Shown here: piece by piece, positions 1 to 61,879 of the stretch
How positions within the stretch are numbered: the stretch's first letter is position 1
Layout: each line of letters begins with the position of its first letter
IMG/VR virus record: IMGVR_UViG_3300047508_000126
Location: 1 to 61,879 of that record
Strand: one strand, 5' to 3'
DNA length: 61,879 bases
Source of the DNA: a virus
Notes under the pieces: model-generated
Databases searched by the model: none
The model's input: only the letters and a program-made list of their open reading frames with translations
What the model was told of the DNA's origin: nothing
Translations under genes and position numbers: made by a program

Positions 1-158
1 GGGGGTGGCCCCGGCCCCCCCCGGCCGGGGGGGGCGGGGGGGGGGGGCCCGACGGCCGTCCCCGCCGGCTGCGTAACACGGCGAGGCCGCAGCCAGCGGG
101 GAACGAACAAGGCAGCCGCGAACAAGACGACGACGATGAGACCCAGCACGCCGGCCAT
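1..158 (-). CDS. Small membrane protein, 5' part (runs off the window start)
   Basis: The ATG at 158-156 overlaps the stop of the upstream gene as TGATG. The frame encodes a hydrophobic N-terminal segment (residues about 4-19, LIVVVLFAAALF in the core) followed by RWLRPRR, so a single-pass membrane protein with a positively charged inner side. The frame stays open to position 1, but the first 46 bases are nearly pure G/C homopolymer and may be assembly noise. The codons around positions 45-56 (TAVGPP) match those that begin the truncated gene at 61879. Joined there, the protein would be about 74 residues. Function unknown. Confidence 0.6.
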   Translation of the reverse strand, partial: MAGVLGLIVVVLFAAALFVPRWLRPRRVTQPAGTAVGPPPPAPPGRGGPGPP

Positions 159-586: not shown

Positions 587-897
587 GCTGCGGCCTTCCG
601 GGGCTGCGGGATGGGTGATGGCGGGCGCTTCAGGCGGCGGCGTTCACGCTCGGACATGCCACCCCAGATCCCGAATTTCTGGTCGGTCTTCAGGGCGTAT
701 CCCAGGCACTCGAGCCGGACCTCGCAAGCACGGCAGATCCGCTTGGCTGCGCCGGTCGAGCCGCCCTTCTCCGGGAACCACGCTTCGGGATCGGCTTGGC
801 TGCAGAGCGCCTTGTCCTGCCACGTCAGGTCTTCGGGTGCGGCGGCCGGCTCGACGGCGAACTCCCGCAGGTAGGAACTGACGGCGTAAGGGTTCAT
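583..897 (-). CDS. WhiB-family iron-sulfur transcriptional regulator
   Basis: 104 residues from the ATG at 897, which overlaps the upstream TGA. The WhiB signature is complete: one Cys in DKALCSQ, the RICRAC pair of Cys, a fourth in RLECLGYA, then the FGIWGGMSERERR turn and a basic tail. WhiB-like proteins hold a 4Fe-4S cluster and modulate sigma-factor-dependent transcription, and they occur in Actinobacteria and their phages and plasmids. It sits in the operon headed by the MerR-like protein, so it may control the transfer or lysogeny genes downstream. Target unknown. Confidence 0.92.
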   Translation of the reverse strand: MNPYAVSSYLREFAVEPAAAPEDLTWQDKALCSQADPEAWFPEKGGSTGAAKRICRACEVRLECLGYALKTDQKFGIWGGMSERERRRLKRPPSPIPQPRKAAA

Positions 898-17006: not shown

Positions 17007-17083
17007 GGATGGTCGATGGTCAGCCCAACCACCCCAAGCAGGCATCGCCGCAGGTCAGGCGGGTAGGGGGGCGGGGTCACGAC

Positions 17084-17881: not shown

Positions 17882-18126
17882 GGACCACGAACCGGGGTCA
17901 GCTCGAGCAGACGCTGAAGGAGCTGCGCCGCCAGGAGCGCATCGGGAAGATCGACGCGGCGGCCGTGCAGGCGGTCCGGTCGATGGCCGCCGCGCTGGAC
18001 GGCGACCCGGTGAACGCGGCGCTGTGGCGGCAGTACCGGGAGGCGCTGAGGGAGCTGACGGCGGATGACGATCACGGCTCCGTCGACTCGGCTCTTGCCG
18101 ACCTGTTCGCCGAAGTGGGCGACTAG
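17878..18126 (+). CDS. Terminase small subunit (putative)
   Basis: 82 residues, GTG in GTGA overlap with the HNH gene and a 62-nt overlap with the large subunit. Entirely helical, with a basic N-terminus (LEQTLKELRRQERIGKIDAA) and an acidic end. The length and position match the small helical proteins that precede HK97-like terminases in actinophages. Homology is not visible by motif, so the call rests on position. Confidence 0.65.
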   Translation: MRTTNRGQLEQTLKELRRQERIGKIDAAAVQAVRSMAAALDGDPVNAALWRQYREALRELTADDDHGSVDSALADLFAEVGD

Positions 18127-19877: not shown

Positions 19878-21353
19878 ATGGGCGTCCTCGACCGGGTAAA
19901 CGCCCGCGCCGCACGCCGCGGCCGGGGTGACGAGTCCCGGTACTCGATCGACACGTGGATCAGTGATTTCCTGATCCCGTCGGGCGGCCAGTTCACCTAC
20001 GGGAACTCGAGCTACCCGTTCGGGCTGGGTCAGCAGTCCCTAGCGGGGAACCGGGCGGCGGAGATCGCGAACAGCCTCCCGGGGTACCGTGCGGCGCTGC
20101 AATCCTGCCCGCCGGCGTTCGCCGCGCAGATGGTCCGCGCCCTGGTCCTGTCCCAGGCCCGGTTTACGTTCAGGAACCCGCCGTGGCACCCGACGAAGCC
20201 GCGGCGGACGTTCGGCAACCCCGACCTGGGGCTGCTCGAGAGGCCGTGGACGAACGGGACGACCGGGGAGCTGGTCAGCCGGGCGGAGTGGCATGCCGGG
20301 CTGGCGGGGAACGCGTTCGTGTACCGGCAGGCGCAGCGGCTGCGGCTGCTGCGCCCCGACTGGACCGCGATCATCTACGGGTCGCAGTCGGAGCCGGAGT
20401 GGCCGTCGGGGGCTTTGGATGCGGAGCTGCTCGGCTACGTGTACGCGAACCGGGGCATCGGGGTGGGGAAACCCGAGTTCCTGCTGCCGAAAGACGTTGC
20501 CCACTGGGCTCCGCTGCCTGACCCGGAGATGACGGGTCTCGGGATGTCGTGGCTGACCCCGGCGATCCGCGAAATGCAGGGTGACCGGCTCGCGAGCGAG
20601 CACAAGATCCGTTTCTTCGAGAACGGGGCGACGCCGAACCTGGTGGTGAAGGGGATCCCGGCGCTAGACCGGCCGGTGTTCGAGCAGCTGGTGAACGACA
20701 TGGAGGAACGCCACGCGGGCGTATCCAACGCCTATCGCACCCTGTACCTGACGGCGGGCGCGGATGCCAGCGTGATCGGCAGCAATATGGCGGAGCTGGA
20801 CCTGAAGGCGGTTCAGGGGACGAACGAGACGCGGCTGTCGGTGCTGTCGCGGGTCCCGGCGGCGCTCTTGGGCATATCTGAGGGGCTGAGCGGCAGTTCA
20901 CTGAATGCCGGTAACTTCTCCGCGGCGCGGCGGAACTTCGCCGACACGTGGGTGTACCCGACATTGCAGGACCTGGCGAACTCCCTGGCCGCGGTGGTGA
21001 CCGTCCCGGCTGACGCGGAACTGTGGTTCGACCCGGCCGACATGCCCATTTTGCGTGAGGACGCGAAGGATGCCGCTGATATCGAGGCGGTGAAGGCGTC
21101 GACGATCAACAGTTACCTGCGGGAGGGGTTTACCGCGGAGTCGGCTATCGCGGCGGTCCGCGGGCAGGACGTCTCGCTCTTGCGGCACACGGGTTTGATC
21201 AGCGTTCAGCTTCAGCCGCCGGGGACGGTGCTGCCGGGCGGGGCCCCCGCGGCGCTGCCGCCAGGTAATGGCACGGTGCCCCCGGCTAAGCCGAAGCCGC
21301 CCCCGCCGGCGGTACCGGCAGCTAACGGCGCAGGAGGAACAGGCGATGGCTGA
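19878..21353 (+). CDS. Portal protein (HK97-like)
   Basis: 491 residues, with GAGGGAGG before the ATG. Typical elements: an N-terminal segment with SYPFGL, the conserved middle LAGNAFVYRQAQRLRLLRPDW, LLPKDVAHWAPLPDPEMTGLGMSWL, and the RVPAALLGISEGLSGSSLNAGNF region near residue 330. A Pro-rich tail ends the protein. It forms the dodecameric DNA channel at one capsid vertex. Overlaps the protease gene by 8 nt. Confidence 0.93.
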   Translation: MGVLDRVNARAARRGRGDESRYSIDTWISDFLIPSGGQFTYGNSSYPFGLGQQSLAGNRAAEIANSLPGYRAALQSCPPAFAAQMVRALVLSQARFTFRNPPWHPTKPRRTFGNPDLGLLERPWTNGTTGELVSRAEWHAGLAGNAFVYRQAQRLRLLRPDWTAIIYGSQSEPEWPSGALDAELLGYVYANRGIGVGKPEFLLPKDVAHWAPLPDPEMTGLGMSWLTPAIREMQGDRLASEHKIRFFENGATPNLVVKGIPALDRPVFEQLVNDMEERHAGVSNAYRTLYLTAGADASVIGSNMAELDLKAVQGTNETRLSVLSRVPAALLGISEGLSGSSLNAGNFSAARRNFADTWVYPTLQDLANSLAAVVTVPADAELWFDPADMPILREDAKDAADIEAVKASTINSYLREGFTAESAIAAVRGQDVSLLRHTGLISVQLQPPGTVLPGGAPAALPPGNGTVPPAKPKPPPPAVPAANGAGGTGDG

Positions 21354-22353
21354 CAGCAAGCCCTACGGCAACGTGACCTACGCCGACCCGAAGAACGGCA
21401 AGTACCCCATCGACACGGCCGCCCACGCCAAAGCGGCCCTCTCGTATATCTCGATGCCGAAGAACGCCTCCCAGTACCCGCTGAACGGCGTGACCCTCGC
21501 GTCGGTGAAGGCGCGGATCATCGCGGCGTGCAAGAAGTTCGGCATCACCGTCAGCCAGTCGAACGCCGCCCACTTCGCGCCGGACCTGGATGTGGTCCGC
21601 TCCGGCGGCGACCTGGAACTCCGCGCCGCGGACGAGCCGCCGCCGGACGGGTCGCTGGGGACGCTGACCGGCCGGTTCAGCGAGACCGGCCGCTGGTACA
21701 AGGTGTCATCCCGGTATGAGGGCGACTTCATGGAGCGTGTCGCCGAGGGCGCGACCGCCGACACGATCCGCGACAACCGGGACGGGATGCGGGTCCTGTT
21801 CGATCACGGGATGGACGCCCAGATCGGCAACAAGGTGCTGGGCCCGATCGACACGCTCGAGGAAAAGTCCGACGGCCCGCATTATGAGGTGCCGCTGTTC
21901 GACACGTCCTACAACCGGGACCTGCTGCCGGGGCTGAAGGCAGGCGTGTACGGGGCGTCGATGCGGATGAGGGTCACCGCCGATGAGTGGGATGACGAGC
22001 CCGCCAAGTCCGATGCGAACCCGGACGGGATCCCGGAGCGGACGATCACCCGGATGAAGGTGCTCGAGTTCGGGCCGGTGACGTTCCCCGCTAACCCCGG
22101 CGCGTCGGCCGGGGTCCGGTCGGGCACCGACGAGTTCTACCACCGGCTTCAGCAGGTGAACGCCCCCGCGTTTGAGGACGCGGTGCGGGCGGCCGGCCTG
22201 AGCCTCGATGACTTCACCGGGCGGGACGGCGCGCGGAGCGCCCCCGGCGGCGAGGAAGACGACGCCAGCCAGGCAAACGGCGGGACGTCACCCACCCGAT
22301 CAGCGGTCCTGCGGGACCGCGCCTGGCGCATGAGAGGACAGCCACATGGCTGA
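21346..22353 (+). CDS. Prohead protease fused to N-terminal DUF6582-type domain
   Basis: 335 residues, AGGAGGAACAGGCG before the ATG. Residues 1-66 (KPYGNVTYADPKNGKYPIDT to KKFGI) match a small domain often carried by actinophage proteases. Residues about 100-260 are the HK97 U35-type serine protease: His 154 (VLFDHGMD), Ser 205 (VYGASMRMRV) and the LEFGPVTFPANPGAS end. A disordered tail may act as scaffold. It cleaves the capsid N-terminal segment during maturation. Confidence 0.9.
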   Translation: MADSKPYGNVTYADPKNGKYPIDTAAHAKAALSYISMPKNASQYPLNGVTLASVKARIIAACKKFGITVSQSNAAHFAPDLDVVRSGGDLELRAADEPPPDGSLGTLTGRFSETGRWYKVSSRYEGDFMERVAEGATADTIRDNRDGMRVLFDHGMDAQIGNKVLGPIDTLEEKSDGPHYEVPLFDTSYNRDLLPGLKAGVYGASMRMRVTADEWDDEPAKSDANPDGIPERTITRMKVLEFGPVTFPANPGASAGVRSGTDEFYHRLQQVNAPAFEDAVRAAGLSLDDFTGRDGARSAPGGEEDDASQANGGTSPTRSAVLRDRAWRMRGQPHG

Positions 22354-23827
22354 CAAGACCACCGACCCCCCCCAGGAGTTCATGCCGGAGAGCATGGACG
22401 ACCTCCGCGGCCGGACCCCCGATGAGCTCCGCAAGATGGCGGAAGTCCTGGACGCGCACCTGAAGGCGCTCCACCAGACCGACGAGGGCGAGCTCCGCGA
22501 CCTGTCCGACGACGAGGAATCCGCGTTCAACCTCGGGATGCAGCTCCGCACCGCGATCCTGGACCGGCTCGACGAGCACACCAAGATCGCCGAGGTGTTC
22601 CGCCGCCGTCCCGCCGTGGTGCAGCAGGCCATGGCGAACATCCGGTACGGCCTCGACGACCCGGCCGGGGACACCCGGCGGCTCACCAACCCGGAGGCCC
22701 GGGACAAGGCGCTGCGGGTCCTGGACTCCCGCGACGCCGGGGACCTGTCCGACGCGCAGAAGACGCAGGTGGACAAGATGCTCCGCCGCGACACGGTCAT
22801 GGCCCGCCGGATCCTCGTTACCGAGAACGAGGACTACCGGTCCGCGTGGATGAAGATGGTCACCGACGTCCACCCGGTCCTGACGCCGGAGGAGAACCGG
22901 GCGGTCCAGGCGTGGTACGAGTTCCGTGCGCTGGGTGACTGGACGACCACGGCGGGTGGTTTTGGCATCCCCGTTTTCATTGATCCTTCAATCATTTTGA
23001 CCGCACAGGAAAGCGGCAATCCGTTCCTGAGCATCGCCAAGCAGGTCACGGTCAACACGAACCAGTGGAAGGGCGTGTCGAGCGCGGGTGTCACCTGGGC
23101 ATTCCAGACTGAAGCCGCGACGACGACGGACAACTCCCCGGTCCTGGCGCAGCCGACCGTGCTGGTCCACATGGCCCGCGGGTTCATCCCCTACTCGATC
23201 GAGGTCGGGATGGACTACCCGGGGTTCGCCTCGGAAATGGGCACGCTCCTCGCCCAGGGGTACGACGAGCTGCTCGTGCAGAAGTTCACCGTCGGGTCCG
23301 GCACGAACGAGCCGAAGGGCATCCTCACCGCGATCTCCGCGGTGTCCGGGGACCGGGTGAAGGTCACCACCGGCGGCACCATCGGCGCCCCCGACCCCTA
23401 CCTGGTGTGGAAGGCGCTGCCGCAGAAGTACCGGCGGAACGCGTCCTGGCTGATGAGCGTGGGCGTGAACAACGCGATCCGGCAGATCGGCGCGGCCAAC
23501 GTGTTCCACGGCTACACCGTCAACCTGCCGGAAGGGTGGGCGGACCAGCTGTTCAACCGGCCCGTCTACGAGTCGGCGTACATGCCCGACACCACCACGT
23601 GGACGACCACCGCCGAGGGCCAGGCCATTGTCGGGGACTTCTCCAACTTCGTCGTGGCCCGGAACGGGGGGATGAGCGTCGAGCTCGTCCCGCAGCTGTT
23701 CCAGCAGGTCACGGCGGGCTCTGGGCCCGCGACTCCGACCGGCCAGCGCGGCTGGTTTGCGTACGCGAGGATCGGCAGCGATTCGAGCAACACGGCCGGG
23801 TTCCGCCTCCTGGTGGCGAACTCGTAA
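22346..23827 (+). CDS. Major capsid protein (HK97 fold) with N-terminal delta domain
   Basis: 493 residues. Residues 1-190 are charged and helical (scaffolding delta domain), and the mature fold starts near EFRALGDWTTTAGGFGIPVF. Typical strands follow (GVTWAFQTEAATTTDNSP; MARGFIPYSIEVGMDYPGF; LLVQKFTVGSGTNEPKGIL). The cleavage site cannot be fixed but should lie near residue 190. Overlaps the protease gene by 8 nt. Confidence 0.93.
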   Translation: MADKTTDPPQEFMPESMDDLRGRTPDELRKMAEVLDAHLKALHQTDEGELRDLSDDEESAFNLGMQLRTAILDRLDEHTKIAEVFRRRPAVVQQAMANIRYGLDDPAGDTRRLTNPEARDKALRVLDSRDAGDLSDAQKTQVDKMLRRDTVMARRILVTENEDYRSAWMKMVTDVHPVLTPEENRAVQAWYEFRALGDWTTTAGGFGIPVFIDPSIILTAQESGNPFLSIAKQVTVNTNQWKGVSSAGVTWAFQTEAATTTDNSPVLAQPTVLVHMARGFIPYSIEVGMDYPGFASEMGTLLAQGYDELLVQKFTVGSGTNEPKGILTAISAVSGDRVKVTTGGTIGAPDPYLVWKALPQKYRRNASWLMSVGVNNAIRQIGAANVFHGYTVNLPEGWADQLFNRPVYESAYMPDTTTWTTTAEGQAIVGDFSNFVVARNGGMSVELVPQLFQQVTAGSGPATPTGQRGWFAYARIGSDSSNTAGFRLLVANS

Positions 23828-36108: not shown

Positions 36109-39102
36109 GTGGCCACCCAGTCGATCCGGTTTGACTTCCTGTCCTCCGGCGCCGCGCGTCTCGCAGCCGACTTCCGCAACACCGGCGACTCGGCGTCCTC
36201 CGCGGCGCGGGGCGCGGGGGTCCTGCAGAAGGTCATCGCGGACCTGGGGCAGAAGGAGAACCGCACCGCGGCGGAGTCGGTGGCCCTAGCGAAGGCGCTG
36301 CGGCTGACCGGCGACGCGGAAGACCGGGCCGCCGCGAAGGCCCTGGCGGCTGACATCGCGATCCGGCGACTCGACGACGCGCTGAAGGACTCAGGCAAGA
36401 GCGCTGGCGGAGCCAGGGGCGGGTTCGCGAGCCTGGCCGGGGAGGTCACCGGGTTCGGCGCCGCCTCCGACGCCGCGACCAGCGGGGGCAACAAGTTCAA
36501 GCTCGCCCTGGCCGGGATCAACCTCGCGTCCGGGGTCCTCGAGCCCGCCCTGGCCGGGGCCGTGGTAGCCGTCGGCGGGCTGGCGGCGGGCCTCGCGGCG
36601 GCCGGCGCGGGGATCGGCGTGTTCGGGATCGTCGCCAAGACGGTGTTCTCGGAGGCGTCCAAGGCAGCCACCGCCTATGCCACCGCCCAGGCCAAGTACG
36701 CGTCGGCCACTACCTCCGCGCAGCGCACAGCCGCGCTGAAAGCCGAGGCGGCCGCGTACGCCGGATTGTCCCCGCCCATCAAGACCCTCGCCGTCGAACT
36801 CGGCACCGCCCAGAGCCAGTGGCAGAAGTTCACCGACGCCGCCGCACCCGGCGTCGTCGGGGTCATCAGCGGCGGCCTCGGGCTGCTGCCGAAGATCCTC
36901 GCGTCGATGAAACCGTTCCTCGCCCCCGTCGAGGCGGCGCTGCGCGGCATCATCGGGCAGCTGAACACCGGCCTGTCATCGACGGGGTTCAAGTCGTTCA
37001 TCGACCTGCTCGCGAAGAACACGGGACCGGCGATCACGAAAATCGCCATTGCGGTCGGTAACGTGATCAAGGGGGTCGCCGGGATCCTGTCGGCGTTCAT
37101 GCCGGTGTCGCAGGGGATGCTGTCCGGGATCGACAAGATCACCGCGAAGTTCGCGGAGTGGGGCAAGTCCCTGTCCGGCGGTACCGGGTTCCAGTCCCTG
37201 ATGACCACCTTCAAGACGGAGACGCCGCAGGCCCTGAAGATCCTGACGAACCTCGGCGCGGTGATCGCCAACGTCGGCAAGGCCATGTTCGGCCTGTCCA
37301 CGTTCTCGAACTCGCGGTTGCTGCTGGGCGCGCTGCTGCCCCTGTCCGGGGTCCTCGCGTCGCTGTCGAAGAACACGGACCTGGTGCGGGTCGCGATGTA
37401 CGCGCTGCTCGCGGTGAAGATCGGGCAGCAGTTCTCCTGGATCGCCCCCGCATGGCAGGGCCTCGTCAAGTTCGCCGCCGCCGCCGACGGCGCCACCATC
37501 GCGGAGACGATCGCCGCCGCCGCGACCCGGGCGTGGGGCCTGGCGATGGATGCCCTGCCGTGGGTCGCGCTCGCCGCCGCCGTCATCGCCGTCGCGGTGC
37601 TGATCATCAAGTACCACCAGCAGATCTGGGTGTTCGCGCAGAAGGTGTGGCATGACGTCCTCGCCGTGATCATGGCCGTGTGGACCTGGGTGAAGGTCAA
37701 CTGGCCGCTGCTGCTCGCCATCATCACCGGGCCGATCGGCCTGGCGATCTTGTGGGTCGTTACCCATTTCGGTGAGATCACCACCGCGGTCAAGACGGTC
37801 CTGACCGCCGTCAAGACGGCGTGGGACGTCGCGTGGGCTGCGATCACGGCCGCGTTCCGCACGGTCATCAGCGCCGGGATCATCGCCCCGTTCAATACGA
37901 TCACGGGTGCGGTCAGGACAGTGCTGGGTGCCGTGTCGTCGGCGTGGAACTCGACGTGGAACACGCTGAAGGCCGCGTTCCGCGTGTTCGTCGTCGACGG
38001 GATCCTCGGCCCGCTGGGGCTGATCATCAACGGGGCCGCGGCGGCGTTCGGGTGGATCCCCGGCCTGGGCTCCAAGCTGAAGACGGCCGCGGCGGCGTTC
38101 AACACGTTCCGCGCCGGGGTGAACGCGGCGCTGGGCGGGATCAACGGGCGGACCGTCACCCTCACCGTCGCGATGCTGTCCGGGCAGGGCCTGGGCGTGC
38201 AGGGCCCCCCGCCGGGAGTGAAGAAGGCGGCGGGCGGCATCATCACCGGCGGCATCCCCGGCCGGGATTCCGTGCTGATCCGGGCGATGCCCGGCGAGGT
38301 TGTCGTCCCCACGAACATGGTGCGGGCCGGGGCTGTGGATCACCTCCGCGGGAAACTGCCCGGGTTCGCGGCCGGCGGCGTGGTCGGCGTGAACGTCGCC
38401 ACGCACACCCCGACACCCGCGCAGGTCCAGTCGACGCTGATGGCCCCCCTGATGAAGCTGGCCGTCGCGTTCGCGAAAGCCGCCGTGGCCGCGGCGAAGG
38501 CGGCATCCGGCGGCGTCTCCGGGGCCGGGCCGACCGGTGGCGACGCCGCGGTGAACCTGGCGCTGGCCAAGAAAATGTTCCCGTGGGGCGCGTCCCAGTG
38601 GGCTCCGTTCAACACCCTGGAAATGCACGAGGCCGGATACAACCGGTTCGCCCGTAATGCCAGCTCGGGAGCGTACGGCATCCCGCAGGCATATCCCCCC
38701 ACGAAGATGCCGTTCGCGGCGCAGGCCGGCGGCGGATCGCACGCCGGGCCGCAGCTGTCATGGATGTTCAGCTACATAGCCGGCCGGTACGGCACCCCGT
38801 CGGCGGCGTGGGCGCAGTATTTCCAGCACCCCGGCGGGGAGGGCTCGTATGACCAGGGCGGGTGGCTCATGCCCGGCGCGACCCTCGCGGTGAATAACAC
38901 CGGCCGGCCGGAGGCGGTCATCACCGGCGCCGGCCTCGACGGGATCACCGCCGAGCTGCGGGCGCTCCGCGCGGAGCTCCGGCAGCTCACCGGCGTCGCC
39001 GCCGGGATCCCCGCCGCGACCGGCCGCCACGTCGGCGGGGCCATCAGCGGCTCCGCCGGCGCGGCGTCGTTCCGGAACAGGTATCCAGTCGGGGGAGCCT
39101 GA
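36109..39102 (+). CDS. Tape measure protein with lysozyme-like C-domain
   Basis: 997 residues from a GTG, far the longest helical protein, setting tail length. Hydrophobic segments lie near residues 145-175 (AGAVVAVGGLAAGLAAAGAG) and 480-560 (LPWVALAAAVIAVAVLIIKY). Near residue 845 the motif NTLEMHEAGYNRFARNASSG, then AYGIPQAYP, is a transglycosylase-like domain with the catalytic Glu, followed by FSYIAGRYGTPSAAWAQY. This would open the peptidoglycan during DNA injection. Confidence 0.9.
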   Translation: MATQSIRFDFLSSGAARLAADFRNTGDSASSAARGAGVLQKVIADLGQKENRTAAESVALAKALRLTGDAEDRAAAKALAADIAIRRLDDALKDSGKSAGGARGGFASLAGEVTGFGAASDAATSGGNKFKLALAGINLASGVLEPALAGAVVAVGGLAAGLAAAGAGIGVFGIVAKTVFSEASKAATAYATAQAKYASATTSAQRTAALKAEAAAYAGLSPPIKTLAVELGTAQSQWQKFTDAAAPGVVGVISGGLGLLPKILASMKPFLAPVEAALRGIIGQLNTGLSSTGFKSFIDLLAKNTGPAITKIAIAVGNVIKGVAGILSAFMPVSQGMLSGIDKITAKFAEWGKSLSGGTGFQSLMTTFKTETPQALKILTNLGAVIANVGKAMFGLSTFSNSRLLLGALLPLSGVLASLSKNTDLVRVAMYALLAVKIGQQFSWIAPAWQGLVKFAAAADGATIAETIAAAATRAWGLAMDALPWVALAAAVIAVAVLIIKYHQQIWVFAQKVWHDVLAVIMAVWTWVKVNWPLLLAIITGPIGLAILWVVTHFGEITTAVKTVLTAVKTAWDVAWAAITAAFRTVISAGIIAPFNTITGAVRTVLGAVSSAWNSTWNTLKAAFRVFVVDGILGPLGLIINGAAAAFGWIPGLGSKLKTAAAAFNTFRAGVNAALGGINGRTVTLTVAMLSGQGLGVQGPPPGVKKAAGGIITGGIPGRDSVLIRAMPGEVVVPTNMVRAGAVDHLRGKLPGFAAGGVVGVNVATHTPTPAQVQSTLMAPLMKLAVAFAKAAVAAAKAASGGVSGAGPTGGDAAVNLALAKKMFPWGASQWAPFNTLEMHEAGYNRFARNASSGAYGIPQAYPPTKMPFAAQAGGGSHAGPQLSWMFSYIAGRYGTPSAAWAQYFQHPGGEGSYDQGGWLMPGATLAVNNTGRPEAVITGAGLDGITAELRALRAELRQLTGVAAGIPAATGRHVGGAISGSAGAASFRNRYPVGGA

Positions 39103-50281: not shown

Positions 50282-50461
50282 TCAGGGGCCGGGGACTTCC
50301 TTGACGCCGAGGAACTGCAGGGGCGTCCGCTTGCCGGGATCGGTCCACCCGCAGCGCGGACAGGGGTTCTGCACCCCGTCGTGCGGGCAGTGGTTCGTGA
50401 TCCGCGAGTGGCCGCAGGCCGGGCAGGTGTACGGGTAGTCGAACGGGCAGTCGCAGTTCAT
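50282..50461 (-). CDS. Zinc-ribbon protein behind the integrase
   Basis: 59 residues, ATG overlapping the integrase stop by one base (TGATG). CDCPFDYPYTCPACGHSRIT, then HCPHDGVQNPCPRCGWTD, forms two zinc ribbons. Coupling to the integrase hints at a role in integration or excision, unproven. Confidence 0.65.
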   Translation of the reverse strand: MNCDCPFDYPYTCPACGHSRITNHCPHDGVQNPCPRCGWTDPGKRTPLQFLGVKEVPGP

Positions 50462-51456
50462 CAGGTGTCCTTTCTGGAGCCGAACCGGGTGGCGAGGACG
50501 TGGGCGGGGTGCCGGTCGAGGTTGTGGCGGGACCGGTCGTAGCGGCGGGTGGTGCGCGGGTCGGCGTGTCCCATGGCGTCCTGAAGGTCGCGGAGGTTCC
50601 CGCCGGCGTCGAGGTAGTCGGTGGCGAACGTGTGCCGCAGCGAGTGGGGTGACAGGTCCGGGGCGGCGGGGATGCCGGCGTTGCGGGCGAGGCGGCGTAC
50701 GAGGTCGTACAGGTACGGTTCGCTGAGCCTGCGGCCGGTGCGGGTGACGAACAGCAGCCCCCGGGCGGGGTTCCCCCGGGCGGCGAGGTAGGTGTCGAGG
50801 GCGTCACCGAGCGCGGGGACGATGGGGACCTTGCGGACCTTGCCGCCTTTCATGCGGACGGTCAGGGTGCGGTACCCCCGGTCATGGCCGAGATCCGTGA
50901 TGTTGGCGGTGAGCGCGGACCCGCAGCGGAGACCGCCGTACAGCAGGAGGCGGATGAGGGCGGACGAGCGGGGCCCGTCAGCGTCGGCGGCCTGGCACAG
51001 CCGGTCGGCCTCGGCGGTGGACAGGCCGACGGTCTCGGAGTTGTCGGGGTCGATGATGGGCCGGCCGTCGGTGTCGGCAGGGTTGGTGAACGCGAGCGGG
51101 CGGGGGTCGTCTTTGGTGTTGCGGTAGAGGTATTTGTACCAGGATGAGACGGCGGCGACCCTGCGGGCGATGCTGGCCTCGGCGGCGGGGCGGCCGTCGC
51201 CGCGGACGCCGTCCTGCCGCTGGGTGGCGATCCAGGCGTCCATGTGCATCATCCGGGCGGCCATCGGGCTGACGTGACAGTGGTCGCACCACCGCCACCA
51301 GTGGCCGAGATCCTGGCGGTACTCGCGCTGGGTGTTAGGGCTGCGCCGGGCGAGCCACGCGGCGGTGAGTGCCCTGATCCGGTCGGCGTCATCCGGCCAC
51401 GCGACGCCAACGTCAACGGCGGGGAGGACACGCCCGGACAGCTCAAGGTCAGTCAC
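50461..51456 (-). CDS. int: Tyrosine integrase
   Basis: 331 residues from GTG 51456 (GTGA overlap with the upstream gene). Residues 25-115 are the SAM-like core-binding domain (RRSPNTQREYRQDLGHWWRW). The catalytic domain has Arg 177 (YGGLRCGS), Lys at 203-206 (MKGGKVRK), His 271 and Arg 274 (HSLRHTFA), His 297 (AMGHADP) and nucleophile Tyr 306 (TTRRYDRS). All are intact. It would insert the phage into the host chromosome; no attP is obvious next to it. Confidence 0.95.
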   Translation of the reverse strand: MTDLELSGRVLPAVDVGVAWPDDADRIRALTAAWLARRSPNTQREYRQDLGHWWRWCDHCHVSPMAARMMHMDAWIATQRQDGVRGDGRPAAEASIARRVAAVSSWYKYLYRNTKDDPRPLAFTNPADTDGRPIIDPDNSETVGLSTAEADRLCQAADADGPRSSALIRLLLYGGLRCGSALTANITDLGHDRGYRTLTVRMKGGKVRKVPIVPALGDALDTYLAARGNPARGLLFVTRTGRRLSEPYLYDLVRRLARNAGIPAAPDLSPHSLRHTFATDYLDAGGNLRDLQDAMGHADPRTTRRYDRSRHNLDRHPAHVLATRFGSRKDT

Positions 51457-51605
51457 GGCTTCCACTCGGAGTGGCTCGCGTCTAGGTGGCAGTTGCACTC
51501 GCACCTGCGCGACGAGCAGGTGCCGCATTCACCGCGAGCGCACGCGGCAGACAGGGTGAGGCAGCAGCCCGGCAGGTGGATGCCGATGCGGTGCAGAATG
51601 CCCAT
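51453..51605 (-). CDS. Cys-rich 50-residue protein
   Basis: Eight Cys and two His in 50 residues (GCCLTLSAACARGECGTC, then RRCECNCHLDASH), probably a zinc cluster. Its end overlaps the integrase start (GTGA). It overlaps the 51482-51877 frame by 124 nt, so one of the two may be wrong or the two may be expressed alternatively. Confidence 0.45.
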   Translation of the reverse strand: MGILHRIGIHLPGCCLTLSAACARGECGTCSSRRCECNCHLDASHSEWKP

Positions 51606-55552: not shown

Positions 55553-55711
55553 CTACTGATCCGGCTCGGGCGGCTTGACCGCTACCAGCGTGTAGTCCTC
55601 GAACCCGACGTTCTCGTCCTCGCACTCCACACAGAACCCGTCACCGCCGAGGCCGAACGCGACCATCCCGCCGCAGCCGTTATGGAAGGCCCGGTACCCA
55701 GAATTAGTCAT
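55553..55711 (-). CDS. Hypothetical 52-residue protein
   Basis: Overlaps the upstream gene by 8 nt. NGCGGMVAFGLGGDGFCVEC, then ENVGFEDYTLVAV, contains three Cys and one His nearby, a likely single zinc site. Last closely coupled gene of the transfer operon. Confidence 0.55.
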   Translation of the reverse strand: MTNSGYRAFHNGCGGMVAFGLGGDGFCVECEDENVGFEDYTLVAVKPPEPDQ

Positions 55712-55826
55712 CGTTGTCCTCCGGTGCGTGTGAGTGGTAGTACCAGACGGCCCACGCGACCACCAGCAGCAGCCCCGCGAACCACACAAAGTCAACACGG
55801 GGCCACCCGAACAGGTCACCCGTCAT
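55704..55826 (-). CDS. 40-residue membrane peptide
   Basis: MTGDLFGWPRV, then FVWFAGLLLVVAWAVWYYH, a single membrane helix, then an acidic end. Overlaps both neighbours by 8-11 nt. Confidence 0.5.
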   Translation of the reverse strand: MTGDLFGWPRVDFVWFAGLLLVVAWAVWYYHSHAPEDNDD

Positions 55827-56202
55827 CGCCGGCCTCTTCGGCGGCGGCCTCCGCGCACGTCCCGCACAGAGGACCGCGGCTGAGGTCCACGTCCGGGCTG
55901 CCGCAGCCAGGACACACCAGGCCGGGACCGTCCTCCCGGGCACGCTCGAGCAGCTCAGCCGACCGGCCCATCGCGATGTCATCGCTGACCCGCATCTCCG
56001 ACACCAGCCGGACCCGCATCACATGCAGCGCGGCGAGCATCTCATCGATCGCGGCCAGGGCGTCGCCCGCGGCGTGGCGGAGATGCGGCTGCGCCCTGGT
56101 TTCGTCGCGGGTCTCCCACTGGGCCAGGCCGACAGCCGCGACGCCTAGCATGTCTTCCAGCGAGCCCGTGTCGTAGGGGATGCGGTCCGTGGCGTCACTC
56201 AT
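55816..56202 (-). CDS. Hypothetical 128-residue protein with C-terminal zinc ribbon
   Basis: Residues 1-90 are helical (LEDMLGVAAVGLAQWETRDE; ALAAIDEMLAALHVMRVRLV). Residues 96-122 (VCPGCGSPDVDLSRGPLCGT, C) are a zinc ribbon. Its start overlaps the previous stop by ATGA and that overlap also codes for the ribosome site. Function unknown. Confidence 0.6.
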   Translation of the reverse strand: MSDATDRIPYDTGSLEDMLGVAAVGLAQWETRDETRAQPHLRHAAGDALAAIDEMLAALHVMRVRLVSEMRVSDDIAMGRSAELLERAREDGPGLVCPGCGSPDVDLSRGPLCGTCAEAAAEEAGDDG

Positions 56203-56531
56203 GACGTGCTCCTGTCGTCGGGTGGCGGGATCCGGGTGACGCCCAGGATGAACCGGGCCATCCTCCCCGCCGCAGTAGACATGCCATGCTGCGCCCAGAA
56301 CCCCGCGCAGACAGCAGGGCCGAAGTCCGGGTGACCGCCATACGGGAGCGTGGCATGGCAGGTGAGAAGCGCCCCGGCGTCCACGTTACGGCGGACGACA
56401 TCCTCGAACCGGGCCTGCGTCAGGTGCATCAGCGCGCCGGGCCGGAAAATGCACGTGCCGCAGCGGCGAGACAGGACCCGGACCTGGCCGTCGTCGCCGA
56501 GCATATCGGTGGCGGCGCGGGCGTCACTCAT
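56199..56531 (-). CDS. Hypothetical protein of the CGTCIFRPG family
   Basis: 110 residues. RRCGTCIFRPGALMHLTQAR, then CHATLPYGGHPDFGPAVCAG and FWAQHG, is a well-conserved pattern in actinobacterial phages and plasmids; the four Cys and His probably bind metal. The function of the family is unknown to me. The C-terminus DDRSTS is dictated by the next gene's ribosome site. Confidence 0.65.
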   Translation of the reverse strand: MSDARAATDMLGDDGQVRVLSRRCGTCIFRPGALMHLTQARFEDVVRRNVDAGALLTCHATLPYGGHPDFGPAVCAGFWAQHGMSTAAGRMARFILGVTRIPPPDDRSTS

Positions 56532-56773
56532 GTCGCGCTCCCGTCTGCGGCAGCCTTGGCGCCGGCCGGGGTGAGCCTGTAATACCGGCGGTGACTGTGG
56601 GCATCCTCCCAATCGCTGGTCACCCAGCCCACCCGCTCGAGCCACGCCAGCGCCGCGTAAATGCTGCCAGGCTTCAGCCCCGCAGCCTCGGCTATCTCCA
56701 GGCCATAGTGGTCCCGGTCCGGGTGCGCCAGGAACACGCCCAGGACAGCAGCCTTCCGGTCCGTCTCGCTCAT
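56528..56773 (-). CDS. PadR-like winged-helix regulator
   Basis: 81 residues. VLGVFLAHPDRDHYGLEIAE, then LKPGSIYAALAWLERVGWVT and RRYYRLTPAGAKAAAD, is the PadR N-terminal winged helix without the usual coiled-coil tail. Likely controls the transfer operon in which it lies. ATGA overlaps both sides. Confidence 0.78.
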   Translation of the reverse strand: MSETDRKAAVLGVFLAHPDRDHYGLEIAEAAGLKPGSIYAALAWLERVGWVTSDWEDAHSHRRYYRLTPAGAKAAADGSAT

Positions 56774-56994
56774 GTCGTGCTCCTGTCTGCGGCGGCCTTG
56801 GCGGGATTTTCGGCGTGGCGGCAGCGGTCCCGCCAGTAATCGGAGTTGCTGGCGCTGACAACTATCGTGCAGGCGAGCAGGATGATCTCGGCTGTCGTGG
56901 CGGCATGGCCGCCGGTTAGCGCTGACACGATTACGCCTGCCATCAGCACCGCCATCACGGCGGTCCGCCAGTACTTCTTTATGAACGGGGTCAT
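56770..56994 (-). CDS. Membrane protein of the transfer operon
   Basis: 74 residues, AGGAGCACGAC before the ATG. Two hydrophobic helices (WRTAVMAVLMAGVIVSALTG; AATTAEIILLACTIVVSAS) and a charged end. Small membrane proteins beside traB in Streptomyces plasmids act in plasmid spreading (Spd); such a role is plausible. Confidence 0.55.
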   Translation of the reverse strand: MTPFIKKYWRTAVMAVLMAGVIVSALTGGHAATTAEIILLACTIVVSASNSDYWRDRCRHAENPAKAAADRSTT

Positions 56995-57884
56995 GTCGTG
57001 CTCCTGCTCTTGGCGCGGCGACGCTGGACGGTACGCACCGACACGTTGTCACGCGCCGCCTCCGCCTCAACCGTCAGTCTCGGCTTCACGGTGACGGGCT
57101 TGTCGCGGGCTGGCGGCGGGGGTGACACGGTGTCGTCCTGCGTGTCGTCCTGCGTGTCGCCGGGCATGTCACCCCCCGTTACCAGCGCAGGCGCGGCGGC
57201 CGGCGGGAACCGGCCGGCGATGGCCTCACCCGGCTTAGTCACCCCATGCCACGTCGCCCACGACATGACACGCACCGCCCGGACCGGATGCCACAGCCAC
57301 CGCGTCATCCCCAGCCTGACAGCATGCTTCTCCAGATCCCCGGTAGCCAGCAGCGCATCCCGGCTCACCCGCCGCGAATGCACCGACCACAGCCACGGCG
57401 ACGACACCGACATCAGCCCGAACGTCACCGCCGCGAACGTCGGCCGCCAATGTGGCGCCATCCAATGCGAGTAGTTCATCACCCCGATGACCAGCGCAAA
57501 CCCGTATGCGGCCAGCCGCAGCCGCAGGGCGCTGTCACCCGCGACCAGGGCGAGGTGCGCCTGCCACGCCAGGTAGACGGCCACGGACTCGAGGGTGACA
57601 GCGACCAGTACCTGACCCGCGAGGGGCCATGGGAGGTGGACGCGGAGGAACGCCATCTGCCCGCAGAACGCGACAGCGTTGACCAGGACGATGGGGACGG
57701 CGGCGAGCCACGGTAGCGACACGGTGAGGGCGGGGCTGCCGCGGCGAGGGTGTCGCCCGCGGCCCGCGTGCACTCGGTTGCCCCGCCTGTCATCCACCAT
57801 ACGGCGTCCGGGGTCGTCCTGCGGCATGGCCGCCGGCGGCCATGGGGGCGTGCCGTTGGCGTGCCCGTTCAACGTCGCCGTCAT
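56991..57884 (-). CDS. DUF2637 membrane protein, spread-protein-like
   Basis: 297 residues. Four hydrophobic helices between residues 52 and 165 (LPWLAAVPIVLVNAVAFCGQ; GQVLVAVTLESVAVYLAWQA; LAAYGFALVIGVMNYSHW; TFAAVTFGLMSVSSPWLWSV) match the DUF2637 layout seen in plasmid and integrative-element Spd-region proteins of Actinobacteria. The C-terminal third is cytoplasmic with a DTQDDTQDD run and an HTH-like end (ARDNVSVRTVQRRR). Next to the TraB-like gene it probably assists intercellular DNA movement. Confidence 0.75.
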   Translation of the reverse strand: MTATLNGHANGTPPWPPAAMPQDDPGRRMVDDRRGNRVHAGRGRHPRRGSPALTVSLPWLAAVPIVLVNAVAFCGQMAFLRVHLPWPLAGQVLVAVTLESVAVYLAWQAHLALVAGDSALRLRLAAYGFALVIGVMNYSHWMAPHWRPTFAAVTFGLMSVSSPWLWSVHSRRVSRDALLATGDLEKHAVRLGMTRWLWHPVRAVRVMSWATWHGVTKPGEAIAGRFPPAAAPALVTGGDMPGDTQDDTQDDTVSPPPPARDKPVTVKPRLTVEAEAARDNVSVRTVQRRRAKSRSTT

Positions 57885-58033
57885 GACGGGTCAGCCTTGA
57901 TTACCTCAAATGCCTGAACCTTCCTCATGATCGTCTCGTTCGCGACCCGCATCGCGTCGATCTCGTCGGCATAGACACCGATGATCTTTATGGTCCCGAG
58001 CATCGTCATCTCGAGCACTACGTGCACTGTCAT
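57881..58033 (-). CDS. Hypothetical 50-residue protein
   Basis: AAGGGGACACGC precedes the ATG at 58033. MTVHVVLEMTMLGTIKIIGV, then YADEIDAMRVANETI, is a beta-beta-alpha unit like small regulators of mobile elements. ATGA overlap with the DUF2637 gene. Confidence 0.55.
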   Translation of the reverse strand: MTVHVVLEMTMLGTIKIIGVYADEIDAMRVANETIMRKVQAFEVIKADPS

Positions 58034-58137
58034 GCGTGTCCCCTTCGTGGCGGGAGTGGTGCCGCCCATCCTGCCCCCCGGCCGTGACGGAGCCGGGTAG
58101 GCCAGCCCTCGTGTCGCACCCGTTCATCGCCGTCCGT

Positions 58138-58263
58138 AACTGTCGCCAACTGTCCAGACTGTCCGCAGGAAGTGTCCAGATGGACAGTTCCTCGCGCGCA
58201 CGCGCGTACGCCTGCGCGCGTAGGGACACGGGACGGGACGCCCGCGGACAGTCCCGGACAGTT
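58138..58263. repeat. ACTGTCC/GGACAGT repeat cluster, candidate TraB recognition (clt) site
   Basis: Copies of (A)ACTGTCC or its complement: 58138, 58148, 58158, 58171 (AGTGTCC), 58182, 58224 (GGGACAC), 58246 and 58256. Two groups flank an alternating GCGCGC block (58191-58221). The cluster ends at the stop codon of the TraB-like gene, where the conjugation locus of some Streptomyces plasmids lies. The region 58034-58264 has no gene. Confidence 0.6.
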
Positions 58264-58264
58264 G

Positions 58265-60424
58265 TCACGCTGCGTTGACCTTCTGCCGGGCTTCCCGGGC
58301 CAGCCTGGCATTCCGCGCCTTGATCTCAGCTAGGCCCTGCCGGATGCTCATGCCGGGCACCGGGGCGTACTGACCGTAGCTGACCTGGGTGACATAGCCG
58401 ATCTCGAGCAGGGCGCCGACCTGATCATGGACCCAGCTGCGGCTCCGCCCGGATTCCCGGCTGAGGTCCCTCGGCGTTGCGGGGGAGTCCGCCGCCGCGC
58501 CCTGCAGCGCCTCAGCGAACCGTTCCTCCTGCCCGGCGATCACCTGGGGGAGACGCCTGACGAGCTCCGGGTCGGGGCGGAAATCATCCGGGACGCGGGC
58601 CATCAGGGCGGCACCGTCGGCGGCGATCCTGGCGGCGGCTTCCTGCCCGGTGCCGGCGCCGGGGGCGGGGGAGGGCACGGTCCCGGCGGCCTGCCGCGCC
58701 TCAGCGGCCACCGCCGCCGCGGCGTGCGGGGAGTCCGCGACAGCAGCCTGATACTGGGGGCTGATCGCATGGAACGCGTCGTCGAGGCGGAGCCAGCGGG
58801 TGTCCCACCATTCCTGCCAGGTGACATCCCGGTCCCCGGCCCGGAACGCGGTCTCAGCACCGCAGTACAGCCGCAGCGGCGGCCGGGCGCCGATCAGCGC
58901 CACGTTCTGCGCGGCGACCCGGTAGAACAGGTCGTGGTCCATCTTCGGGGCGCGGACCTGCTCCGGGAACATGTCCGGGCCGTCCTTGATGTAGCAGGTG
59001 CCCTTTTCCTCGAGCCGGGACGCGTCGAGCCGCTGGTACTCGGGGATCACGTAGGCGCCGTGGCGGGCCTCCGCGACCCGGTAGGCGACACGGCACAGCA
59101 GGTTCCCGCGGGTCTGCTCGGTCTGGACCGATTCCTCCAGGGAGCCGTTCTGGGTGTAGACCTCCACGTAGCCTTCCAGGCCGCTGGCAAGGCTGGATAC
59201 CAGGGCGAGCAGCTTCGCGCATTCGCTGTCCCCGTTCGCCGCCGAGGTCAGGCCGTGGGTCTCGTCGATCATCGTGTGCAGCGCGGGGGTGTCCTCGTCG
59301 GCCAGGAGCTGCTCATCACCGGTGTAGGCGTACTTGGCGCGGGCCTTCCCCTCGGCCACGGCCATCCGCAGGTACGTCCGCGCCTCGTCGATCTCGGTGA
59401 TCACGTACTCGGCGCTGGCGGCTTTCAGGACCGGGCGGGCGGACCGGCCGCCCTTCAGGTCAATGAGGATCTGCCGGTCATCCCGGCACCCGGACAGGCC
59501 GGCGAGGCGGACGAGCAGGTGGTTGCTCTTCCCGGTGCGGGTGGCGCCGATGACGAAGCAGTTGACCCGCTGGGAGAGCATCTTCCACGCGCCCGTCTCG
59601 GACTTCCCGATCGGCGCGGCCTCGTGGACGGAGCGGGGGGCGAGGCTCATGTCGTACTCGATGATCTCGCGGAGCGGGTTCTCCTGCTTCAGGAAGATGT
59701 CGACCTCGGACGGGTACCCCTTGACGGGTTCGATGCGGACGAGGCCGATGTCGGCGTGGCCTTCGGCGGCCGATTCGATCAGCGGGAGGGCCTGCCGGAA
59801 GTGCTGCAGCGTATGGAGGCCGGGGATGCCCCTGACCCTGATGCGGAGGGTAACGCCAGACACCTGCGCGTCCTTCGCGAACGAGCCGCCCAGGTTCCAC
59901 CGCCAGCAGTGGGACTGCCACCACGTGTCGGCCTGGGCGATGAGCCGGTCCCGTTTACGCTGCCCCCTAGGGCGTTTGTGCCGCCACCAGAAGAACCCCC
60001 ACGCGGCACCCCCGGCGGCCAGGGTGCTGGCCAGGACGATGCCGGTCACCTCGCCGCTGAGCGGGCCCGCCGTGGAGGCGGCGATGAGCCACAGCACGGC
60101 CCCGATGACGGACAGCCGGGCATACCAGACCTCTGGTTCCCGGTCCCATTTGTGCGGGGCGAAGTAGCAGACGGCGACAGCGAGGATGATCCCGGCGCCG
60201 GCGACGTAGCCAGCGAGATACGCCTGGTAGAACACCAGGCCGGCCAGCCACATGACGGGCGGGATGGCGAGCGGGACGGTGACATGCCCGTTCCGCCGCA
60301 CCCACCGGGCGATCGTCTTGACCGCCGCCTCGGACTCGCGGGGCTTGTCCTGCGGCCACGGCGGCGAGGCCACGGCGGCGGGCGCGTACCCGGACGGGCT
60401 GAGCACGATTTCCTTGCCGGACAT
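58265..60424 (-). CDS. TraB/FtsK-SpoIIIE-like DNA translocase
   Basis: 719 residues. Four N-terminal membrane helices (about 49-65, 72-90, 103-118, 125-147), then a soluble domain. Walker A is GATRTGKS (293-300), Walker B TMIDE (384-388), with LIDLKGGRS between them. Near residue 635-700 a winged helix (PRDLSRESGRSRSWVHDQVG, ALLEIGYVTQVSYGQYA) takes the place of the FtsK gamma domain, as in TraB of Streptomyces plasmids, which move double-stranded DNA between cells as a single protein. Chromosome-type FtsK is longer and less likely. Confidence 0.9.
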   Translation of the reverse strand: MSGKEIVLSPSGYAPAAVASPPWPQDKPRESEAAVKTIARWVRRNGHVTVPLAIPPVMWLAGLVFYQAYLAGYVAGAGIILAVAVCYFAPHKWDREPEVWYARLSVIGAVLWLIAASTAGPLSGEVTGIVLASTLAAGGAAWGFFWWRHKRPRGQRKRDRLIAQADTWWQSHCWRWNLGGSFAKDAQVSGVTLRIRVRGIPGLHTLQHFRQALPLIESAAEGHADIGLVRIEPVKGYPSEVDIFLKQENPLREIIEYDMSLAPRSVHEAAPIGKSETGAWKMLSQRVNCFVIGATRTGKSNHLLVRLAGLSGCRDDRQILIDLKGGRSARPVLKAASAEYVITEIDEARTYLRMAVAEGKARAKYAYTGDEQLLADEDTPALHTMIDETHGLTSAANGDSECAKLLALVSSLASGLEGYVEVYTQNGSLEESVQTEQTRGNLLCRVAYRVAEARHGAYVIPEYQRLDASRLEEKGTCYIKDGPDMFPEQVRAPKMDHDLFYRVAAQNVALIGARPPLRLYCGAETAFRAGDRDVTWQEWWDTRWLRLDDAFHAISPQYQAAVADSPHAAAAVAAEARQAAGTVPSPAPGAGTGQEAAARIAADGAALMARVPDDFRPDPELVRRLPQVIAGQEERFAEALQGAAADSPATPRDLSRESGRSRSWVHDQVGALLEIGYVTQVSYGQYAPVPGMSIRQGLAEIKARNARLAREARQKVNAA

Positions 60425-60449
60425 GGATCACTCCAGAGAAAAGGGCGGG

Positions 60450-61295
60450 TCAGCGGGCGCCGGACTCAGACAGTTCCTGATGGTGCGGGGCCTGCCGCGG
60501 GGACTTCGCCAGGTCACCGACCGTCATGTTGATCAGCGTCGAGATGGCCGCGTCGGCTTCGGACAGGGACATCGCGGCGGCCTGGTGATGCTGCCCCGCC
60601 TGCCCGAGGGGCTCGGTGATCTCCGGGCCGTAGTTCTGGCCCGGCTCGGACATCTGCCGGGCGAGCATCTGCACCATCGCGGCGAACCGGACCGACCCCT
60701 CATGGGCGGCCTTGACGGCTTCCTGCTTGGCGTGGATGCCGCCGGCCTGGGCGTGGGCGTGGATCTCGTTGATGCCCTCGATGAGCTTCTCCGCGCTGGC
60801 CGTGCTCGTTCCTGCTGCCACTGGGTTTCCTCCGTTATATCTGGGTTTGCCGCCAGCCCCGTAATTGGGCGTCGCTATATTGCCGGGAGTTCCTGCCACT
60901 GGGTTTCCTCCGTTAGTGCTAGGCGGTGCTTGCGGCGGCGGGGACGCGGCCGGGGTGGACCGGGTGAGCCGCTGGCGCAGGGTCTGCCTCGGCGGAGCGG
61001 CCGCCGTGGTGGTGCCGTTCGTGCGGGCGTGACGCTGCTGCTCAATCCAGTCCGTCGTAATCGCCTGCGTCCACAACCGGTGCGCGTCGGCTTTCGCCTG
61101 GGCGCGGATAGCGGCAGCCGCCGACCGGATGGGTGTCCGGCCCGGACCCGGGGACCGGGACTGACCGCGGGGCGCCGGAGAACGCGACCGCATCCCCTTG
61201 GTCCGCGGGCCCGTCCACGCGCGGCGGCGGGCATCCTGGATGGCCTTGTTCGCGAAGTACGCGCAGACGACTACGACGATGATCCCGAGCAGCAT
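60450..61295 (-). CDS. Membrane-anchored protein of the transfer operon
   Basis: 281 residues. MLLGIIVVVVCAYFANKAIQ is an N-terminal membrane helix; a basic linker follows, then an Asn-Gly-rich part with NGGNPVA twice, and a helical C-domain (LIEGINEIHAHAQAGGIHAK; SLSEADAAISTLINMTVGDL). Proteins with this layout stand beside traB in actinobacterial integrative elements. It may be a partner in pore formation; not proven. Confidence 0.6.
   Translation of the reverse strand: MLLGIIVVVVCAYFANKAIQDARRRAWTGPRTKGMRSRSPAPRGQSRSPGPGRTPIRSAAAAIRAQAKADAHRLWTQAITTDWIEQQRHARTNGTTTAAAPPRQTLRQRLTRSTPAASPPPQAPPSTNGGNPVAGTPGNIATPNYGAGGKPRYNGGNPVAAGTSTASAEKLIEGINEIHAHAQAGGIHAKQEAVKAAHEGSVRFAAMVQMLARQMSEPGQNYGPEITEPLGQAGQHHQAAAMSLSEADAAISTLINMTVGDLAKSPRQAPHHQELSESGAR
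60816..60915. repeat. 22-bp direct repeat inside 60450-61295
   Basis: Identical 22-bp segments at 60816-60837 and 60894-60915 encode the two NGGNPVA motifs. A recent in-frame duplication. Confidence 0.85.
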
Positions 61296-61297
61296 GA

Positions 61298-61762
61298 CTA
61301 ACCCCCAGCCCACGTCGAGATACTCGACACGACATGCTGCGCCGGCGCGGCGGTAGCCACGAACAGGTTGTGGGCCGCGCCCGCCGGGGCGAGGGCGAAG
61401 ACAAGCGGGGCGGCCAGCGCAACATAGGCGTACTGCGCTGACGGCGACCAGATCAGCGCCACGATCACGGTGGCAGCCATCGCCAGCGCCGCAAGAGTGA
61501 TCAGCGCCCATCCCAGGCCGCTGCCCGGCGCGGTGGACGCGCCGACAAGACCGAAAGCGCTCTCGATATGGGAGATGACCCACTGGCCGCCGGGGGTGAG
61601 GACCGCGACGGCACCAGCGCAGTACATGCCGATGATCACGAGGCGGTGCAGCCACGGGTGAGTGCCGGACGGCAGGTGGTTCAGGTGGCGGAGCAGCAGC
61701 CAGCACACCCCTGCCGTGACGAGCGCGACACCTGAACCGACCAGGGAAACGATCCCGCTCAC
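61298..61762 (-). CDS. Four-helix membrane protein of the transfer operon
   Basis: 154 residues from a GTG in GTGA overlap with the gene upstream. Helices near residues 5-25, 42-58, 83-108 and 111-135 (LVIIGMYCAGAVAVLTPGG; ALITLAALAMAATVIVALIW; YVALAAPLVFALAPAGAAHN). Position beside the TraB-like gene suggests a spread or channel protein. Function unproven. Confidence 0.6.
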   Translation of the reverse strand: MSGIVSLVGSGVALVTAGVCWLLLRHLNHLPSGTHPWLHRLVIIGMYCAGAVAVLTPGGQWVISHIESAFGLVGASTAPGSGLGWALITLAALAMAATVIVALIWSPSAQYAYVALAAPLVFALAPAGAAHNLFVATAAPAQHVVSSISTWAGG

Positions 61763-61879
61763 GGCTTATCCCCGATCTTCAGGCCGTCGTCGTAAGCGAA
61801 CGGGCGGGTCGCCTCATCGCGCGGCGGTGCTGGTACCGTCGTCCCCCCCGCAGCTGGCGGACGCTGCGGGGGGCCGACG
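61759..61879 (-). CDS. 3' part of a small membrane protein (continues at position 158-1)
   Basis: The frame enters from the window edge as VGPPQRPPAAGGTTVP and ends RPFAYDDGLKIGDKP with a TGA overlapping the next GTG. It has no start inside this end. Codons GTC-GGC-CCC match GTC-GGG-CCC read on the minus strand near position 50, so the two ends are one gene of about 74 residues on a circular map. Confidence 0.6.
   Translation of the reverse strand, partial: VGPPQRPPAAGGTTVPAPPRDEATRPFAYDDGLKIGDKP
61844..61873. repeat. Very stable GC hairpin at the window end
   Basis: CCCCCCGCAGC (61844-61854) and GCTGCGGGGGG (61863-61873) form an 11-bp stem with an 8-nt loop. It lies inside the junction gene and may explain the poor homopolymer sequence in the first 46 bases of the window. 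Confidence 0.75.

Follow-up and report, generated by a model that had tools for sequence, protein, structure and literature searches.

The described systems closest to the locus examined here are the TraB/Spd modules of Streptomyces plasmids. TraB of pSVH1 moves double-stranded DNA (dsDNA), and its winged helix binds 8-bp repeats. Direct and inverted repeats make up the published clt (transfer-initiation) sites, and the pWTY27 site spans 16 bases of traA and 159 adjoining bases. The spd genes are highly diverse, function in intramycelial spread and affect plasmid stability. In passages of PMC4487206, pZL12 is described as a plasmid-phage with both conjugal transfer and a lytic phage cycle. Here we describe a gene module built around a traB-like gene in a soil phage genome, the complete IMG/VR record IMGVR_UViG_3300047508_000126 (61,879 bases, hereafter the window). 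The translocase is supported as TraB-type, and the non-coding gap directly behind its gene is a candidate clt site. We consider it slightly better than an even bet that the module represents a phage-borne actinobacterial TraB/Spd dsDNA transfer system, which would pump phage DNA between cells.

The TraB-like translocase

The open reading frame of the translocase is intact. It comprises an N-terminal transmembrane region, a HerA/FtsK motor (residues ~180-505) and a C-terminal winged helix (~635-700). Walker A (GATRTGKSN) starts at residue 293 and Walker B (..MIDE) lies at 387-388; GxTxxGKSN and DE are invariant across the seven viral TraB-like sequences. Hydrophobic N-terminal segments are present in the window protein, and the hydropathy peaks are weaker in some family members. 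An earlier note, made by a model from the letters alone, had read a TraB/FtsK-like translocase with both Walker motifs and a winged-helix end, and these features hold. The AlphaFold model (mean pLDDT 62, with the motor largely at 60-85) predicts the winged helix confidently (~80-90), as the structure prediction proposed in that note was meant to establish. The winged helix matches Pfam HTH_IclR/TrmB at E 1e-3 to 6e-3, below the cut-offs. Single-sequence searches gave PHROG 31069, ‘FtsK/SpoIIIE-like’ (E 7e-11), and nothing clear in Pfam or PDB; tblastn of the window TraB against plasmids returned no match at E 1e-3. A profile from the relatives matches TcpA, the coupling protein of pCW3 (E 5e-5). 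The fold search with the model recovered TcpA (E 1e-12), the FtsK motor (7e-11) and EccC (5e-8), with no terminase among the matches.

For placement of the family, a scoring profile of the seven viral proteins was run against a set of known proteins; the best of 251 reported shuffles reached 1.4 bits. TraB of the S. albidoflavus plasmid p7 scored 64.1 bits, collinear across motor and winged helix, and pZL12.71c was second-best (33.9 bits). Proteins of TP1604 (29 bits), Hiyaa (28), phage-plasmid NBC_01278 (24) and Gilgamesh (15) followed, together with TraB of S. longwoodensis (18) and of pIJ101 (only 14). E. coli FtsK scored 12.4, SpoIIIE 11.4 and a TcpA-like protein 10.2 bits. In the tree, chromosomal FtsK, TcpA-like and Dnd-FtsK proteins form a group (100/100) with the viral family outside it. 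The viral family itself (100/100) is nearest to pZL12.71c and Hiyaa, with long-branch warnings, and p7 TraB takes no firm position. Together, profile scores, tree and fold search support assignment to the TraB type, as opposed to chromosomal FtsK or a packaging ATPase. The clustering with either of the latter that the earlier note had named as evidence against its TraB-type module was found by none of the three approaches.

The repeat-rich gap behind traB

Directly after the traB stop codon, a non-coding gap of 150-212 bp is present in seven of seven genomes (the window and six further viral contigs). Its GC-rich core is similar to WACGCGCGYAGGCGNRYGCGCG in most members and has diverged in L002 and L021. 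Short repeats, mostly inverted, flank the core on both sides, and each genome has its own: ACTGTCC in the window, TGTTCGC in L018, CGTCCAC in L002, GTGTCCA in L019, TTTTCCA in L007, TTTCCGG in L020 and TTGTCCA in L021. Five of the nine ACTGTCC copies in the window genome lie in the gap, as do six of the seven TGTCCA copies of L019. Enrichment of the gap motif is 26-657 fold for motifs chosen after the fact. Tested against shuffles, the complementarity of left and right arms gave a Fisher p of 1.6e-8 across the seven genomes. A scan of the whole window for clustered 7-9-mers did not single out the gap; its top matches were coding repeats in tail-region proteins (29715-31871 and 42902-45061) and in 4969-5805. 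The first of these (+ strand) is a 718-residue, Ala/Gly-rich protein encoded by coding repeats of ~54 bases.

The gap matches published clt sites in position and make-up, and thus we treat it as a candidate clt, a reading that strengthens the idea of transfer. The winged helix has evolved more quickly than the motor (identity ~0.27-0.52 as against 0.45-0.68), and the repeats differ among the seven genomes too. Such a pattern would arise if every TraB recognised the repeat of its own genome, as may be the case.

A core-pattern scan of viral contigs gave nine matches, four of them known members and five new contigs. No TraB of the window family was found in the examined stretches of these five (for L035, in the whole record); the core by itself is therefore no predictor of traB. 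Among the five, L035 (57 kb) alone is an actinophage in which the repeat arms are similar and the protein at the DUF2637 position has a homologue; at 7915-9124 it carries this homologue and a similar core flanked by GGGCACT/AGTGCCC. In L019, just after the candidate clt (12596-12910, +), there is a gene for a small S13-like H2TH protein (PF22525, E 2e-27) that resembles actinobacterial integration host factor.

In two genomes, L021 and G001, a protein with a GIY-YIG domain and a winged helix is encoded at this place. Its C-terminal winged helix is similar to that of the neighbouring TraB (43% identity over 63 amino acids, E 1e-12, in L021; 28% over 75 amino acids, E 6e-5, in G001), and the protein may act at the same DNA site as TraB. 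The window lacks it at that position. A more far-reaching proposal is that this actinophage lineage possesses all of a dsDNA conjugation system of its own. TraB and the clt array would co-diverge as a private loading code, and some members would add a GIY-YIG winged-helix nuclease at the site. We consider the whole of this proposal improbable. If true, it would put a site-specific nuclease next to the translocase, although such systems are thought to transfer DNA without cutting it.

Related contigs and genes of the module

Scans of viral contigs identified six more carriers of traB (27, 17, 98, 98, 33 and 40 kb; 44-62% identity), and the last scan added none. TerL, the terminase large subunit, is confirmed in six of the seven contigs and belongs to two families (phrog_9 and phrog_2/979); the seventh contig has a large phage-family protein. 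Given six more contigs with the same type of operon and two terminase families, the module is not an assembly chimera. No relative came out of two scans covering 84,980 genomes, which were limited to short exact peptides and so do not prove absence.

Wherever a contig covers the region, the order 4-TM (four-transmembrane) gene, single-TM/YGPE gene and traB recurs, with WhiB at the head, either adjoining the 4-TM gene or with one gene in between. The single-TM/YGPE gene is always immediately 5' of traB, and this order is kept in the relatives. In L021, an 81-amino-acid protein with two transmembrane segments is encoded between WhiB and the 4-TM gene (8062-8307, +; weak match to TrbC/VirB2 pilin, E 0.005). 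Among the head genes of G001 is an animal-type haem peroxidase with a Tat-like N-terminus (L005 10632-12176, -; PF03098, E 7e-11), and a transposase-like open reading frame (L006 3657-4481, -; IS110-like by eye, with no Pfam match) lies between the module of G001 and the terminase.

The DUF2637 protein, the PadR regulator and the several small membrane proteins that the earlier note had recognized were all recovered, the last with four, one, two, one and one predicted transmembrane segments. The Pfam match of the DUF2637 protein (E 5e-4, 20.4 bits) is just under the cut-off of 22.8, and phrog_10376 matches at E 3e-6; the match is weak in the window and strong in L021. By tblastn it finds DUF2637 and hypothetical proteins of Streptomyces plasmids, down to 7e-13. 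Profiles of the YGPE protein and of the DUF2637 position gave only noise against genes of pIJ101, pZL12 and p7. By eye, the 128-amino-acid open reading frame at 55816-56202 looks like one of 98 amino acids at the equivalent place in G001. The single coupled operon of the earlier note stands in part: genes from 58069 down to 55553 overlap by 4-11 bp, but traB is set apart by 195 bp, and thus there are really two blocks. Coordinates are given in Table 1.

Table 1. Positions of the module and phage genes in the window, and of the GIY-YIG genes in two related genomes (aa, amino acids; TM, transmembrane).
Feature	Position	Strand	Basis or remark
4-TM protein, 154 aa	61298..61762	-	TM prediction; conserved in module, 30-42% identity
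Single-TM protein, 287 aa	60450..61313	-	basic linker and conserved helical ‘YGPEITEP...PHHxELSE’ domain
TraB/FtsK-type translocase, 719 aa	58265..60424	-	intact open reading frame; motifs, profile, fold
Candidate clt/loading site, non-coding	58070..58264	-	ACTGTCC arms around core TACGCGCGCAGGCGTACGCGCG (58201-58222)
62-aa protein, DUF7336-like	57881..58069	-	match below cut-off
DUF2637 membrane protein, helix-turn-helix-like C-terminus	56991..57884	-	
74-aa protein, 2 TM segments	56770..56994	-	TM prediction
PadR-like regulator, 81 aa	56528..56773	-	Pfam E 6.5e-11
Four short overlapping open reading frames	55553..56531	-	
Small 1-TM proteins	55704-55826 and 55332-55493		TM prediction
WhiB regulator	583..897	-	probable upstream part of module across contig ends
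142-aa protein	158..586	-	between WhiB and contig end
TerL	18065..19651	+	phrog_9, E 4e-35
Portal to major capsid protein	19878..23827	+	family match
Tape measure protein	36109..39102	+	family match
Tyrosine integrase	50461..51465	-	family match
GIY-YIG and winged-helix protein	L021 12367-12930	+	directly after candidate clt
GIY-YIG and winged-helix protein, G001	L006 11218-11790	-	directly after candidate clt

The TerL gene proves the window to be a tailed phage. For the full siphovirus set that the earlier note had listed, terminase, portal, major capsid and tape measure proteins were identified by family, whereas family searches of the window proteins matched no lysis gene. Neither par nor rep genes turned up in the window, where small open reading frames were searched in part, and megablast of the window against phages gave no match. 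WhiB, which precedes the 4-TM homologue in relatives, is found at the start of the window. The contig ends thus probably belong together, and the contig is likely to represent either a circle that was cut open or a genome that is nearly complete. A non-coding stretch before TerL (16880-17060) holds an AT-rich palindrome (TGATCAT repeats) and a tandem ACGGCTGACCACCCGCC, and is a possible origin or pac site.

Proposed function and alternatives

In a transfer system of the TraB/Spd kind, the TraB-like protein would be a membrane-bound ring motor of the FtsK type, loaded by its winged helix on the repeat array behind its own gene, the candidate clt. The 4-TM, single-TM/YGPE and DUF2637 membrane proteins would join TraB, perhaps to form a pore. 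Circular phage or prophage DNA would then be pumped, without cleavage, into an adjacent cell or hyphal compartment of the host, presumably a filamentous actinobacterium, and the phage could spread through a mycelium or colony without particles. Dual transfer, by particles and by cell contact, is plausible, at about an even chance.

Several points weigh against this function. Apart from the DUF2637 protein, no partner protein is detectably homologous to accessory genes of pIJ101 or pZL12, and the L007 protein at the DUF2637 position has no Pfam match. L021 fails the test of arm complementarity and L002 is marginal in it. Single-genome repeat statistics are modest: in an unbiased tile test, 10 of 2452 window tiles reach the same 7-mer count. 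Related cultured phages often carry an isolated ftsK-like gene without such an operon, the authors who described Geonosis suggested a replication role, and the gap element could be an operator, a terminator or an RNA structure instead.

The last of these points would make the repeat element only a regulatory or RNA structure (the operator of the downstream operon, or an attenuator), maybe one that regulates the module, and is compatible with other readings. The element sits between the two gene blocks on the transcribed strand, and its single-strand folds are unusually stable in most genomes (RNA z -0.9 to -6.3; in the window -6.29 for RNA and -5.45 for single-strand DNA), which keeps an RNA or regulatory role in consideration. 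However, an Rfam search of the gap found no family, the fold is not common in detail among the genomes while the inverted repeats around one core are conserved, and position and make-up fit a clt. We consider a solely regulatory element somewhat unlikely. A motor working within the infected cell, in chromosome-dimer resolution, segregation or clearing of replicating phage DNA and with no cell-to-cell transfer, would draw on the motor family shared with FtsK. In many cultured Streptomyces phages, some apparently lytic, the lone FtsK-like gene is near replication or resolvase genes, in line with the suggestion made for Geonosis, and the module is upstream of the terminase on the same strand in G001, L018, L019 and L020. 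Yet the closest profile relatives are plasmid TraB and pZL12.71c, not FtsK, a conserved multi-gene membrane operon with DUF2637 is unexpected for a segregation motor, and the window encodes a tyrosine integrase. An intracellular motor is, in our view, unlikely.

Transfer could also be confined to prophage maintenance, with TraB carrying an episomal prophage into spores or from compartment to compartment of a single mycelium, and not between colonies. The roles of Spd in intramycelial spread and plasmid stability fit, as does a TraB fold that is the fold of septal pumps, but no par or rep gene was identified among the window genes searched, and we hold this to be quite doubtful. HerA/FtsK-fold ATPases occur in defence systems, and with membrane partners present a superinfection exclusion or HerA-type defence complex was considered. 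It was rejected as very improbable: PADLOC gave one negligible match (mad8, E 0.009, with no stretch passing alone), there is no fused nuclease or effector, and neither a winged helix nor a repeat array would be needed. A packaging ATPase, or a phage-plasmid assembly chimera, would be suggested by nothing more than co-occurrence on one contig. With a separate true TerL, no terminase fold match, and module and phage genes together in six more contigs, this was also rejected and is scarcely credible.

Should TraB be functional here, a tailed phage would be able to move horizontally in two ways, inside particles and as dsDNA passed on by contact. The second route could take a prophage past receptor barriers within the mycelium, and might mobilise host DNA as well. 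With an array behind traB that is specific to each phage, the idea can be examined directly through DNA binding even when the original host is not at hand; for living cells, cultured Streptomyces that carry TraB-bearing phage-plasmids offer a system.

Comparison with known systems

TcpA and FtsK/SpoIIIE are the best solved-structure matches of the translocase, but their sequence scores are low (10-12 bits); FtsK is chromosomal, and TcpA belongs to a different conjugation system, of the type IV secretion type. Cultured Streptomyces phages (Gilgamesh, TP1604/Woodruffvirus, Hiyaa) encode FtsK-like proteins of the same motor superfamily, with weak similarity (15-29 bits). Five Streptomyces plasmids of 130-133 kb (CP108441, CP108533, CP070374, CP107821 and CP122459) are apparent phage-plasmids, carrying both a Gilgamesh-type TerL (76-92% identity) and a TraB-like gene; Streptomyces phage-plasmids that share the Gilgamesh TerL are 125-133 kb. 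The WhiB/4-TM/YGPE/DUF2637 operon was not seen in the annotations of these cultured phages and phage-plasmids. Passages of the phage-plasmid literature that mention mobilisation genes contain no mention of TraB modules.

pZL12 (phage ZL12, NC_013420) is likewise a tailed-phage genome with a membrane FtsK-like protein, 71c, which we infer to be its tra gene. The neighbours of 71c are a low-complexity protein (72c) and a membrane protein (73c). Unlike the window, pZL12 has ParA/ParB, its partner proteins are not homologous by profile, and the gap after 71c has only a terminator-like hairpin and no comparable repeat array.

The Streptomyces TraB/Spd modules (pSVH1, pIJ101, pWTY27, p7) share with the window a membrane FtsK-type motor with a C-terminal winged helix, small membrane partners and a repeat array adjoining the tra gene. 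In p7, a 7-kb S. albidoflavus plasmid, the gene order is TraB - 98 amino acids - DUF2637, with DUF2637 in the same Spd-type position as in the window. This order, and the DUF2637 protein itself, support a plasmid-like neighbourhood for the phage locus. The window module differs in being carried by tailed phages and in the remoteness of its protein similarity, and the plasmids examined have no match to its YGPE, 4-TM and WhiB genes. Dual transfer by a phage is not a new concept, given pZL12 and the Gilgamesh-like phage-plasmids with their distant TraB-like gene. What is new here is the translocase family, the conserved operon, the repeat array and the winged-helix nuclease.

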